64,000 bases of DNA from Amniculibacterium aquaticum. GTDB taxonomy: Bacteria; Bacteroidota; Bacteroidia; Flavobacteriales; Weeksellaceae. The notes under the pieces were generated by a model, which worked only from the letters and a program-made list of their open reading frames with translations, had not been told where the DNA came from and did not search any database. Made by a program: the position numbers and the translations under genes. The stretch is from assembly GCF_003852705.1 (NCBI RefSeq), contig NZ_REFA01000012.1, positions 1-64,000 on the forward strand. Reading direction: 5' to 3'. This document shows, one piece after another, positions 6,254-33,757 of this stretch (within the stretch, counting starts at the first letter, position 1; every line of letters begins with the position of its first letter).

Positions 6254-7699
6254 ATGTCAGATTATTCTAAGCAAACCAATTGGGGGCAATTCATACCTCT
6301 TGTTACGGTTTTTTTCTTTTGGGGATTTGTTGCAGCCAGTAACGATATTTTAATTCCGGTTTTCAAAAAAGAGTTCAATCTCAGCCAAGGGCAGAGCCAA
6401 TTGGTATCTTTGGCCTTCTACATTGCTTATACGGTAGGTTCACTCATCTATATGTTTATTTCAAAAGGCATCAAACAAGATTTGATCAACAAAATCGGTT
6501 ACAAAAACGGGTTAATCTACGGTTTGCTGATCTCCGCATCCGGGACTTTGTTGTTTTATCCTGCAGCCAATATGGGATCGTTCGTCTTAATGATTACCGG
6601 ACTTTTTATAGTTGGCCTAGGATTTTCATTACAACAAATTGTCGCCAACCCTCTTTCCATAGAGGTTGGTCCAAAAGAAACCGGCTCACAGCGATTGACC
6701 ATGGCCGGAGGAATTAACAATCTTGGAACGACAATTGGACCGTTAATTGTGTCTTTTGCAATCTTTGGATCTGCAACTGCCAGCAACACAGAAGCCAGTA
6801 TAGAATCGGTAAAAATCCCGTATCTAATTCTTGGAGTTGCCTTTATTTTGGTTGCAATTTTATTAAAATTCTCCTCACTTCCTGCCGTAAGGCCAACCAA
6901 TTTGGAAAATACAGACGACAAAGAAGAAGGACATCACAAAACCTCGGCACTTCAGTATCCGCAATTAATTTTAGGGATGATTGCCATATTCCTTTATGTT
7001 GGTGTTGAAGTATCAACAGCCAGTAACCTACCGGCATATATGGAGAACAGTTTGGGATTCGAAACCAAAGAGATTGCTCCTTTCGTATCTTTATATTGGG
7101 CTTCTTTGATGATTGGCCGATGGACAGGAGCCGTTGAAGCTTTCGATTTCAGTTTAAATCTAAAAAAAGTTTTAAGATTTCTAGCTCCGTACTTGGCTTT
7201 TTCAGTGTTTTTATTGGTTAATGCCATTGCAAAGCACGATTTGTCTCATTTTTATGTGTACGGATGGATTATTTTAGCCATTATTATTTGCGACATCTTA
7301 AGCAAGGGCAACCCAGCAAGAATGTTGCTTATATTTTCGATTGCCGGCATTACAGCACTGATTATTGGGATGATGAGCAGCGGAATGACTTCCGTATATG
7401 CATTTACCAGCGTTGGGCTTTTCTGTTCTACACTTTGGCCATGTATTTTTGCTTTGGCCATAAACGGATTAGGAAAACACACCAACCAAGGATCCGGATT
7501 GTTGATTATGATGATTATGGGAGGTGGGTTTATCTCTTGGCTACAAGGAACGATAGCCGATGCAACCAGCATACATTTTTCTTATATTGTTGGGGTTATT
7601 TGTTTTGCTTACCTCGCGTTTTACGCCATACAGGTTACAAAAATCTTAAAAAAACAAGGAATAGAATTAGAAAATGCCAGCGTAAAAAATGGACATTAA
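6254..7699 (+). CDS. MFS sugar:proton symporter, FucP/GluP type
   Basis: A 481-residue inner-membrane transporter with about 12 hydrophobic segments. The N-terminal stretch with AASNDILIPVFKKEF and LSQGQSQLVSLAFY is typical of the fucose/glucose/galactose FucP-type MFS group of Bacteroidota. It should import a neutral hexose with protons; the specific sugar cannot be read from the sequence. Its last 11 bases overlap the start of the DUF3810 gene, implying co-transcription. Confidence 0.9.
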   Translation: MSDYSKQTNWGQFIPLVTVFFFWGFVAASNDILIPVFKKEFNLSQGQSQLVSLAFYIAYTVGSLIYMFISKGIKQDLINKIGYKNGLIYGLLISASGTLLFYPAANMGSFVLMITGLFIVGLGFSLQQIVANPLSIEVGPKETGSQRLTMAGGINNLGTTIGPLIVSFAIFGSATASNTEASIESVKIPYLILGVAFILVAILLKFSSLPAVRPTNLENTDDKEEGHHKTSALQYPQLILGMIAIFLYVGVEVSTASNLPAYMENSLGFETKEIAPFVSLYWASLMIGRWTGAVEAFDFSLNLKKVLRFLAPYLAFSVFLLVNAIAKHDLSHFYVYGWIILAIIICDILSKGNPARMLLIFSIAGITALIIGMMSSGMTSVYAFTSVGLFCSTLWPCIFALAINGLGKHTNQGSGLLIMMIMGGGFISWLQGTIADATSIHFSYIVGVICFAYLAFYAIQVTKILKKQGIELENASVKNGH

Positions 7700-8777
7700 A
7701 AACACATATTTTAAATACAATACATTAATTTGGGCAGGTCTTTTACTTGCCCAAATTTGTTTCTTTTACTTCATATCGAAAAGTCAAAAATTATTAAGTT
7801 TTCACATTTATTTTTTTGAATGGCAAAAGGCCGTCCATCAGAAGATATTTTCATGGATCCCTTTCTCCATCGGAGATGTATTTTACATCATTTTAGGAGT
7901 ATACATTCTGGGCATCTTCATAAAGTCATTTAAAAATAGAAAGAAATCCTTCAAACAGATTTGTATTTTATTGAACATCTGCTACCTCATCTATCAACTC
8001 ATTTGGGGCTTGTTGTATTTTCAACCACCGATTATTGAAAAACTGCCTGAAGGTAAAAGCAACTTGAATGACATAAAAAGATTAACTGAAATATATTTTA
8101 ATAAATGCATTGCCGATCGAGCCTTGATCCACGAGAATCATGCTGGAGTTTTTAAAATTAAAAATATAGACTCTATAAAAAAAGAGATATTAAACTCACA
8201 AAAATCAATTCCAAAAAAATTAATCAACCTATCAACTACGGAAGTAAAAAGTATAAAACCCAGTCTATTTGCAGAGTTCATGAGCTATACCGGTATTTTG
8301 GGTTATTACAATCCTTTTACCGCCGAGGCGCAGTTCAATAACAATATCCCAGACACACAAATCCCTTTTACCCTGTCCCATGAAAGCGCACATCAGCTTG
8401 GTATTGCAAGAGAAGAAGAAGCCAATTTTGCAGCATTTTTAATGGGAAAAAACAGCCAAAACAATGAACTGAGGTACAGCACCCATTATTTTGTTCTGAA
8501 AAACCTATTAATTCATCTACAAAATTACGACCCGGAGTATGTAAAGAAAATGGTATCTGAATTTCCTGTTGGGCTAGAGAAAGATTTTATGGAAGAAAAA
8601 GCGTTCTATAAAAAGCATGAAGGCTTATTAAACACTGTATTTTACACCACCAATGACTGGTTTCTAAAAAGCAATCAACAAGATGGAAGCATTAGTTATT
8701 CGTACTTCATAGAACTCTTCATCAGGTACGAAACAAAAGAACTGCGTTTCACAACGCAGTTCCAAAAACACAAATGA
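7689..8777 (+). CDS. DUF3810 membrane-anchored putative zinc metallopeptidase
   Basis: A 362-residue protein with about three N-terminal hydrophobic helices (residues 12-30, 60-80, 90-112) and an extracytoplasmic C-terminal domain. H231-E232-x-x-H235 followed by E243/E244 (HESAHQLGIAREEE) forms a gluzincin-like zinc site, although the family is only named DUF3810. It overlaps the sugar transporter gene by 11 bases. Its last codons coincide with a perfect inverted repeat (8739-8762) that I read as the terminator of a small RNA on the opposite strand. Peptidase activity is inferred from the motif. Confidence 0.85.
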   Translation: MDIKNTYFKYNTLIWAGLLLAQICFFYFISKSQKLLSFHIYFFEWQKAVHQKIFSWIPFSIGDVFYIILGVYILGIFIKSFKNRKKSFKQICILLNICYLIYQLIWGLLYFQPPIIEKLPEGKSNLNDIKRLTEIYFNKCIADRALIHENHAGVFKIKNIDSIKKEILNSQKSIPKKLINLSTTEVKSIKPSLFAEFMSYTGILGYYNPFTAEAQFNNNIPDTQIPFTLSHESAHQLGIAREEEANFAAFLMGKNSQNNELRYSTHYFVLKNLLIHLQNYDPEYVKKMVSEFPVGLEKDFMEEKAFYKKHEGLLNTVFYTTNDWFLKSNQQDGSISYSYFIELFIRYETKELRFTTQFQKHK

Positions 8778-8819
8778 TGAAAAAAAAATTTATTGCTTTA
8801 AGAACAATAGCTTTAAAGC
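8732..8819 (-). ncRNA. Putative small RNA, copy A of a three-member family
   Basis: Minus-strand unit with a -33 box (CAAA on the plus strand, 8852-8855), a 20-base spacer and a -7 box TAATTTTG (8824-8831). The predicted RNA of about 88 bases has a 5' stem GCTTTAA/TTAAAGC, then a U-rich core (nine T, CATCATTTGTG, five T) and a perfect 8-bp terminator stem GAACTGCG/CGCAGTTC with a T-rich tail. Its 3' half is antisense to the last 46 bases of the DUF3810 gene. Core and layout are shared with copies at 9007-9099 and 33680-33757. Ends are estimates. Confidence 0.6.
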
Positions 8820-8823
8820 ACTC

Positions 8824-8855
8824 CAAAATTACAACATATATTCATATCTTCCAAA
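8824..8855 (-). promoter_or_regulatory. Promoter of small RNA copy A
   Basis: Minus-strand TTTG (8852-8855), 20-base spacer, TAATTTTG (8824-8831), a good fit to TTTG-N19/20-TAnnTTTG. Nothing but the small RNA lies downstream on this strand. Confidence 0.6.
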
Positions 8856-9006
8856 TAAAAAATATGAATGAAAATTATAGCATTTCCTTAATTAAGACTT
8901 TTTCATCCTTATGACAGAACTATTCAAACTAATTATCTTTTTTCATTTGAAATAATTCATTAAAACCTCAATTAAGAGGTATTATATTTTTTTGATAAAA
9001 TTAAAT

Positions 9007-9099
9007 AAAAAAAGAATCACGTTTCACAACGCAATTCCAAAACACAAATGATGAAAAAAAATTTATAGTCTGGAAATATTTAACTATCCCCATTTGACT
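9007..9099 (-). ncRNA. Putative small RNA, copy B of a three-member family
   Basis: A minus-strand unit of about 93 bases driven by a two-box promoter at 9104-9134. A weak 5' stem ATAGT/ACTAT leads into the same core (eight T, CATCATTTGTG, four T). The terminator stem GAATTGCG/CGTGATTC differs from copy A at several positions yet still pairs over eight positions through G-U wobbles, and is followed by seven T. Retained pairing despite changed bases argues for a functional RNA hairpin. Copy A and B cores lie about 275 bases apart in the same orientation, suggesting tandem duplication. Confidence 0.65.
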
Positions 9100-9103
9100 A
9101 CAG

Positions 9104-9134
9104 CAAATATAAAAGAAATAATGAACAAAACAAA
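9104..9134 (-). promoter_or_regulatory. Promoter of small RNA copy B
   Basis: Minus-strand TTTG (9131-9134), exactly 19 bases, then TATATTTG (9104-9111). It fits the Bacteroidota consensus and has no protein gene downstream. Confidence 0.65.
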
Positions 9135-9458
9135 TAGTTTTATCAAAAATATTCAAAGAAAAAATAAATAATTAGGAACATATGATTCAGAACACAAAAG
9201 CTCAGACCGTACTATTTTCATCAAAACACGAATAATTTAGAATAGACTCATTATTTAACCTCCCTCAACGAGTATAAAATAAGCATAAGAATATCACAAG
9301 TAAGAAAAATAGTATTTTATAAACATGATCTGCAAATTTCATTTCGTTTTTACACAAAGAATTAAATTTTCACATTACCAAAAAATAGGAAGTACTGTAG
9401 AACGACTATTCGAATACCTGGTACTGAAACTTGGCCGATATTCATCAAAATAAGAAAC

Positions 9459-9492: not shown

Positions 9493-9566
9493 TAGCGAAG
9501 ACGGGAATTGAACCCGTGACCTCAGGGTTATGAATCCTGCGCTCTAACCAACTGAGCTACCTCGCC
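9493..9566 (-). tRNA. tRNA-Met (anticodon CAT)
   Basis: A 74-base cloverleaf on the minus strand. Acceptor GGCGAGG pairs with CTTCGCT using G-U pairs, the D stem is GCTC/GAGC, the anticodon loop is TTCATAA with CAT, and the T arm is ACGGG-TTCAATT-CCCGT. A73 is present and CCA is not encoded. The closing pair of the anticodon stem is an A-C mismatch. CAT could also denote an isoleucine tRNA modified at C34; elongator methionine is the more likely reading. Confidence 0.92.
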
Positions 9567-33644: not shown

Positions 33645-33675
33645 TTTGCATTTAACATAACATTGATTAAATTTG
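33645..33675 (+). promoter_or_regulatory. Promoter of small RNA copy C
   Basis: TTTG (33645-33648), exactly 19 bases, TAAATTTG (33668-33675). It sits after the clpB stop and before a terminator, with no protein gene between. Confidence 0.7.
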
Positions 33676-33679
33676 CGCG

Positions 33680-33757
33680 TTGTTTTAGTACAATAATTTT
33701 TTTTCATCATTTGTGTTTTTGCCTTGGCTTAGATTTATTCTAGGCCAAGGTTTTTTT
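33680..33757 (+). ncRNA. Putative small RNA, copy C of a three-member family
   Basis: A predicted RNA of about 78 bases in the clpB 3' intergenic region, opposite in orientation to copies A and B. A short 5' stem TTGT/ACAA is followed by the same core (eight T, CATCATTTGTG, five T) and a terminator stem CCTTGGC (33722-33728) / GCCAAGG (33744-33750) with seven T. The hairpin sequence is unrelated to those of copies A and B, while the core is identical over 23 bases, so the core, not the hairpin, is conserved. It also may terminate clpB transcripts. Ends are estimates. Confidence 0.68.

Follow-up and report, generated by a model that had tools for sequence, protein, structure and literature searches.

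Does the window, that is, the whole stretch of 64,000 nucleotides from Amniculibacterium aquaticum analysed here, encode small RNAs (sRNAs) that act in trans, and if so, on what would they act and what would control them? The question arises from three short units, A, B and C, which had been proposed to constitute a small-RNA family. All three were confirmed at the predicted places, each with a promoter of the Bacteroidota type and a terminator. The promoters, read from the sequence, are of the −33/−7 consensus type of Bacteroidota and comprise TTTG (8855-8852), a spacer of 20 nt and TAATTTTG (8831-8824) for unit A (8824-8855, minus strand), TTTG (9134-9131), a spacer of 19 nt and TATATTTG (9111-9104) for unit B (9104-9134, minus strand), and TTTG (33645-33648), a spacer of 19 nt and TAAATTTG (33668-33675) for unit C (33645-33675, plus strand). 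The units also share, as claimed, an identical core of 23 bases, T8 CATCATTTGTG T4, which lies at 8787-8765 (A, putative seed) and 9061-9039 (B) on the minus strand and at 33697-33719 (C) on the plus strand. A scan of the window with 22 core bases, allowing up to three mismatches, returned exactly three places, namely A, B and C; dinucleotide shuffles of the window gave a mean of 0.03 matches, and none of 100 shuffles reached three.

Unit A (about 86 nt; 8735-8820, minus strand) consists of a 5' hairpin, an open core and an intrinsic terminator with an 11-bp stem (8735-8763), the latter based on sequence, fold and an alignment of orthologs. Its ends are inferred and have not been mapped. Units B (about 90-95 nt; 9005-9099, minus strand) and C (about 76 nt; 33680-33757, plus strand) were delimited by sequence and fold, with terminators at 9005-9038 and 33721-33757, respectively. 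Predicted folding energies of the whole units were -25.2 (A), -19.4 (B) and -22.0 kcal/mol (C). A hairpin and a T-run follow each core as proposed, and the terminator stem of C is indeed unrelated to the others. The original prediction of a weak 5' stem in every unit was borne out for A and B but not for C, and the hairpin of B, said to keep eight pairs by wobble changes, folds with 11 pairs, of which some are wobble pairs. The core is predicted to be unpaired in A, where it lies between two hairpins, and to be partly within a weak helix in B and C.

Unit A is convergent with a DUF3810 gene (7689-8777, plus strand; PF12725, E = 2.8e-78) whose TGA stop lies within the complement of the core, so that the gene ends inside unit A (window positions 8735-8777) and the terminator of A doubles as coding sequence. 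In G002, a second genome, the DUF3810 gene stops before the hairpin, as judged by eye. A tRNA gene (9493-9566, minus strand; Rfam) is located upstream of the A/B pair, and unit C sits downstream of a gene for a ClpB-like AAA+ protein.

Flavo-1 is a short RNA motif of Flavobacteria, and membership of the units in it had been left undecided. At gathering scores, Rfam matches in the window and in 14 related loci were confined to tRNA, and a search of 8600-9400 with E values up to 10 gave nothing sensible; an identity with Flavo-1 thus found no support.

The distribution of the core was determined across genomes. With at most one mismatch it occurred in 248 of 296 Weeksellaceae genomes, representing 23 of 33 genera, whereas the backwards control gave no match. 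Counts reached 13 per genome, and these include some sponge sites (see below) and chance matches. In a sample of the order, the core (at most one mismatch) was present in 45 of 49 genomes of the same family versus one of 247 genomes from other families. Since the backwards control had three matches in two of these 247 genomes, the lone match outside the family is at noise level. Core carriers among the matches listed are Chryseobacterium, Kaistella, Epilithonimonas, Elizabethkingia, Halpernia and Cloacibacterium; the groups g20 and g23, referred to below, are inferred to be mostly Chryseobacterium and Elizabethkingia, respectively. The tandem A/B pair was found in all three genomes examined of the genus to which the window belongs, and unit C was present also in G002. 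The genome containing the window (hereafter, the source genome) has one further exact match to a 20-base part of the core, which does not represent a fourth unit and falls within the candidate sponge. No match to unit A was found in a plasmid collection. In a viral collection the exact core occurred in a single contig (IMGVR_UViG_2645727825, L395, 11919-11940, minus strand), and phage spread is therefore not an obvious main route.

Among 110 unique copies, a terminator hairpin followed the core in 109 (controls: 20, 27 and 7 of 110), beginning at a median of 5 nt past the core and having a median stem of 11 bp. A −7 box, TAnnTTTG, was located within 110 bases upstream in 49 copies (controls: 17, 7 and 2), in 19 of them exactly 15 nt ahead of the T-run, and was combined with a TTTG or TTG −33 box in 18 copies (controls: 0, 0 and 0). 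The simple −7 box is absent from the 110 upstream bases in over half of the copies. The copies listed have the core in common but not the 5' parts and stems; invariance of the core among copies, including alignment A1, is there by construction, as copies were fetched by the core. The copies at L062, L130, L133 and L141 resemble 3'-UTR products of one gene type, having an ORF end like ...TNGFYKN and a small hairpin ahead of the core.

In all 55 examined loci that have a DUF3810 gene, the core lies convergently after that gene, and the DUF3810 proteins beside A-type copies are about 40-66% identical to the one encoded in the window. These loci overlap and had been retrieved through the core or its complement; they demonstrate synteny of A, not universality. 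Of 16 stem pairs in 17 aligned A-type units, 13 change on both sides, a value reached by none of 500 shuffles, and 94.5% of cells pair in the consensus fold compared with 33-57% for slid structures. One of five covariation measures, that of further pair types, was unexceptional (128 of 500 shuffles as high), and the 17 units had been selected via the core. Taken together, the assignment of A, B and C to a large, apparently uncatalogued multicopy sRNA family of Weeksellaceae is strongly supported, in the absence of transcript data. The proposal that the family acts in trans is sustained on computational grounds by the multiple copies, the order of core and terminator, the excess of promoter boxes, the compensatory stem changes and the complementary RNAs encoded in trans that are described below.

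Some genomes of the family contain an opposite-sense RNA in which the complement of the core (anti-core) occurs 1 to 11 times. In the source genome this candidate sponge is located on another contig and encloses the fourth core match on its other strand. It has a promoter-like box, anti-core copies (two at up to one mismatch, three at up to three mismatches), a strong terminator and a diverged dyad of the kind described below. Its relatives in G001 and G002 have a conserved terminator and diverged sites, and G004 (g3) combines three anti-core sites with a terminator but shows no obvious dyad. Two close anti-core copies were found in 13 of 296 genomes, and in none with the backwards control. 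The case of G008 was dropped as a coding coincidence, since it lies inside coding sequence. The number of sites in the other 12 genomes (six g9, six g20) ranges from 2 to 11, and CAGAGCCGAAAGGCTCTG-type hairpins separate the sites in several of them; g11 and g32 have one site only. No long ORF is predicted in seven sponge transcripts including that of G122 (g9), the longest ATG ORF being 7-38 aa. The array ends in a terminator in the sponges measured other than those of G054, G077 and G094 (all g9), where the stretch from the last close site to the start of the following gene contains no run of five T, and these three arrays could instead be leaders. At L205, L206, L207, L214 and L215 (g9), the array is followed by a small gene of about 150 aa whose product starts MKIxNR/QKxx... 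and looks membrane-like by eye; in several genomes this gene has a CACAAAT-like start region of its own. Given a layout of repeated sites in one transcript versus single-site genes in trans, the anti-core RNA is read as a decoy, and its inferred role as a sponge for the sRNAs is well supported, although neither transcript nor interaction data were available.

Pairing between the core and the sponge of the source genome was predicted at -24.6 kcal/mol (z = -5.7), with none of 200 shuffles as low. The core paired with the sponges of the source genome, G001, G002 and G077 better than 200 of 200 shuffles in each case. With whole sRNAs the outcome of the 12 combinations was mixed: for A and B, 0-2 of 200 shuffles were as low against the sponges of the source genome, G001 and G077, and 9 (A) and 1 (B) against that of G002; for C the numbers for the four sponges were 5, 22, 28 and 1.

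Predicted pairing extends to the flank of the sites. TTCT, the complement of AGAA with which the common sRNA stem (AGAATC) starts, was present within 16 bases upstream of 28 of 71 anti-core sites versus a background of 10.9%, and at 23 of 46 array sites of the 11 loci with the double pattern; tandem sites are not independent in these counts. In the genus of the window, the stems of A and B start with GGAA or GGAG, and TTCC was found in the sponges of G001 and G002, TTCT in none of the three sponges. The looser AGTTCCAATTACACAAA of the source-genome sponge (an AGTTCC site) failed the strict TTCC pattern. In g7, g9 and g20, TTCT occurred in 9 of 18 genomes and TTCC in none; in eight other genomes (g3, g11, g23, g32) the only TTCT match, in G046, was not at an anti-core site. 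These sequences suggest that sponge flank and sRNA stem changed in step, essentially as one contrast between genera and not within them, which may reflect one event. Apart from this contrast, no other changes in step between core and anti-core were found.

Seven of the 12 sponges with two or more sites lie directly after genes for a histidine kinase and a LuxR-type response regulator. Another (G110) is located about 4 kb after the regulator and one (G155) at a contig end, and no kinase-regulator pair was found adjacent to the sponges of G147, G248 and G263. In G001, the sponge precedes the kinase-regulator pair. Pfam was run on the G077 and G001 pairs only, and the other pairs were assigned by sequence likeness. 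A dyad composed of TAGATAAATATCTA and, about 22 bp further on, CGATATATATCTA resembles a regulator site. A search for the regulator at E ≤ 1e-45 gave matches in 33 of 100 genomes, covering 12 of the 33 genera. Thirty regulator loci were read and the regulator end was located in 28, leaving L243 and L251 unscored; anti-core matches are present at L243 (G059). The 800 bases after the regulator contained the anti-core in 19 of 28 loci at up to two mismatches and in 17 of 28 at up to one mismatch, compared with none on the other strand and with one (up to two mismatches) or none (up to one) for the backwards motif. The matches in G000 (the source genome) and G055 were set aside because they lie inside neighbouring genes, and 17 of the 19 were judged to be real anti-core loci. 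The dyad TAGATAAATATCTA (up to two mismatches) was found after the regulator end in 21 of 28 loci, but in none of the 28 when the preceding 800 bases were scanned. In all DNA examined, which is enriched for these loci, 17 of 21 distinct dyads had anti-core sites within the next 600 bases. Tandem units occurred at regulator loci as two units in four g23 genomes and as four in G081.

The linkage is not universal. G045 and G071 had no anti-core at up to one mismatch at their regulator loci, the contig of the latter genome ending near the regulator. The source genome has kept the regulator, preceded by a kinase-like gene, on another contig, and neither there nor in G002 is the sponge beside it. 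G053 (g5, L250) has both core and regulator, yet no sponge after the regulator. In four g10 genomes without the core (G055, G068, G078, G087), the regulator is followed by a glycosyltransferase-like gene (by eye) and no sponge. The loci at which a glycosyltransferase-like gene takes the place of the sponge after this type of regulator are L249, L252, L253 and L254 (g10) and L250 (g5), with a dyad-like site at L249, L253 and L254. A joint loss of core and sponge in g10 was considered and not retained as a clean case, since G053 shows this arrangement although it has the core. Overall, the case is strengthened by the controls on the regulator side and weakened by circular sampling.

As for potential targets, a start region that reads AAAACACAAAUGAUGAAAAAAAA / AAAACACAAATGATGAAAAAAAA is exactly complementary to the core. 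The pattern AAACACAAATHATGA was found at 38 places in 60 g20 genomes (backwards control: 4), and one permuted pattern with the same dinucleotides at 8 places (backwards control: 3). AAACACAAATHATGA excludes exact core copies, and some of the 38 places are variants of sRNAs or sponges. An ORF of at least 90 aa begins at 17 of 30 loci read versus three of eight for the permuted pattern; about half of the 17 ORFs carry an export signal or a lipoprotein box (by eye), and three pairs are orthologs. Complementary gene starts in the sampled DNA gave a weak signal when pooled (18 versus 9.2 expected; 100 of 2000 permutations as high). The sole outlier was G043 with 9 versus 1.6 (0 of 1000 permutations), its nine starts being mixed by eye. 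Values elsewhere were 4 versus 2.9 (source genome), 1 versus 1.3 (G061), 0 versus 1.2 (G010) and 4 versus 2.3 (named loci), and 1 versus 0.9 and 1 versus 1.2 in genomes lacking the core. Individual cases include exported proteins at L181, L375 and L377 and, in two genomes, a lipoprotein (L363 and L364) whose start also matches the sRNA stem. The 30 gene-start matches listed are illustrative only, as much of the DNA was fetched by motif. Pairing of the sRNAs at start codons is likely, a regulon has not been established, and the target side of the model is only partly supported. At L245 (G061), a gene start at 290 (plus strand) has a perfect anti-core (MKKSKKTECDFC...), and an anti-core-like site at 507 (plus strand) resembles the complement of an Elizabethkingia-type sRNA stem and is followed by a hairpin.

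Other readings of the core and of the arrays have to be weighed. The core might not be a seed but an element of the 3' end, serving either as a binding site for a protein that recognises U-rich RNA or as a signal for processing or stability that travels with the terminator. Its position at a median of 5 nt before the hairpin in 109 of 110 copies fits such a role, as do the copies at L062, L130 and L141, which by eye resemble 3' UTRs directly behind the end of an ORF, and the presence of an RRM protein (see below). However, separate RNAs bear arrays of its exact complement behind a dyad of their own, some of them matching the terminator stem as well. Because a protein site needs no complement, these arrays speak against a mere 3'-end element, which we consider quite improbable. 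That the core is part of a dispersed repetitive DNA element which includes a terminator by chance and has no RNA function would be in line with the many copies per genome, some of them in tandem and with differing flanks; yet A-type copies remain beside DUF3810 genes at the protein identities given above and show compensatory stem changes, and what copies share is the core plus an adjacent hairpin of differing sequence instead of fixed ends. We see next to no room for this explanation.

The arrays, in turn, might be leaders of regulated mRNAs with many sites, or the array RNA might regulate the core RNAs. The g9 arrays of G054, G077 and G094, with no run of five T before the next gene, are compatible with leaders. 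The other measured arrays, in contrast, end in a terminator and lack any long ORF in the seven transcripts mentioned, and a transcript with many sites, set against trans-encoded genes with one site each, is laid out like a decoy. This alternative therefore appears unlikely, and we prefer the interpretation as seed-bearing sRNAs with a sponge.

A helper protein may be involved. Hfq gave no match in the source genome, the one genome searched. One RRM match was obtained there, in a protein of 104 aa with a Gly/Arg-rich tail (G000:C13:65073-65282, L366), and this protein is inferred to be the likely helper because no Hfq was found in that genome. RbpB of Bacteroides is an RRM protein. The situation would be similar to that in Bacteroides, where RbpB is described as binding FopS sRNAs (PMC11697453).

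According to the same paper, the FopS (GibS) sRNAs of Bacteroides thetaiotaomicron comprise 14 paralogs, with 12-15 copies in named relatives, have a seed that is conserved and single-stranded, with an intrinsic terminator behind it, and pair near the start codons of mRNAs for surface proteins; RbpB acts as their antagonist, and their structure is stated to be deposited in Rfam (PMC11697453). The units studied here are likewise multicopy, with a seed, a terminator and start-codon targets, the last partly supported here. They differ from FopS in having no Rfam match (presence of the FopS model in the Rfam copy used is unconfirmed) and in belonging to another bacterial family. The antagonist, a protein in the FopS case, is here putatively an RNA beside a two-component system, and the accessible part of PMC11697453 names no sponge for FopS. 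Membership of the units in the FopS family has not been shown. Rfp18 of Flavobacterium psychrophilum, an sRNA conserved in Flavobacteriales, is predicted to target secreted proteases and an adhesin; in contrast to the units, its pairing region is described as the third stem-loop (PMC9723704), and the core of the units is, unlike Rfp18, essentially absent outside the family of the window.

A limited search of open-licence PMC papers found no RNA sponge in Bacteroidota, and no counterpart of a decoy RNA beside a two-component system was found in such papers. In Vibrio cholerae, an RNA sponge (QrrX) reportedly restrains the trans-acting sRNAs of quorum sensing (Qrr). The candidate sponge would resemble it as an RNA that holds trans-acting sRNAs in check; it differs in that the Vibrio case belongs to another phylum and involves Hfq, whereas up to 11 sites, often after a LuxR-type response regulator, are found here.

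In the model we propose, the sRNAs would work through the U-rich core, 5'-UUUUUUUUCAUCAUUUGUGUUUU-3', which is mostly unpaired and has a variable 5' portion on one side and the intrinsic terminator on the other. The sRNAs are inferred to pair over the start codons of mRNAs, a considerable share of which encode exported proteins, and to block initiation, which is partly supported. An active LuxR-type regulator may switch the sponge on, an inference from linkage and dyad only; the sponge would then titrate the sRNAs and release their targets, and the single RRM-domain protein might serve as helper. We regard it as probable that seed sRNAs block translation starts like ACACAAATNATGAAA and are antagonised by a sponge under two-component control; transcript, end and interaction data are lacking. 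The more far-reaching view, held with only slightly better than even confidence, is that a two-component system runs an sRNA regulon via an evolvable sponge: acting on the dyad, the regulator would control up to 11 decoys that vary between species and track the sRNA stems, thereby derepressing ACACAAATNATGAAA starts of genes for exported proteins without Hfq.

The pieces are short and separable, so that seed, sponge and target pairing are directly testable. If the model is true, Chryseobacterium, Elizabethkingia and their relatives would possess a family-wide sRNA regulon with a defined seed, a predicted rule for start-codon targets, a candidate chaperone and a dedicated decoy with multiple sites that is linked to a two-component system, and this regulon would operate in genomes where Hfq may be missing (one genome searched).
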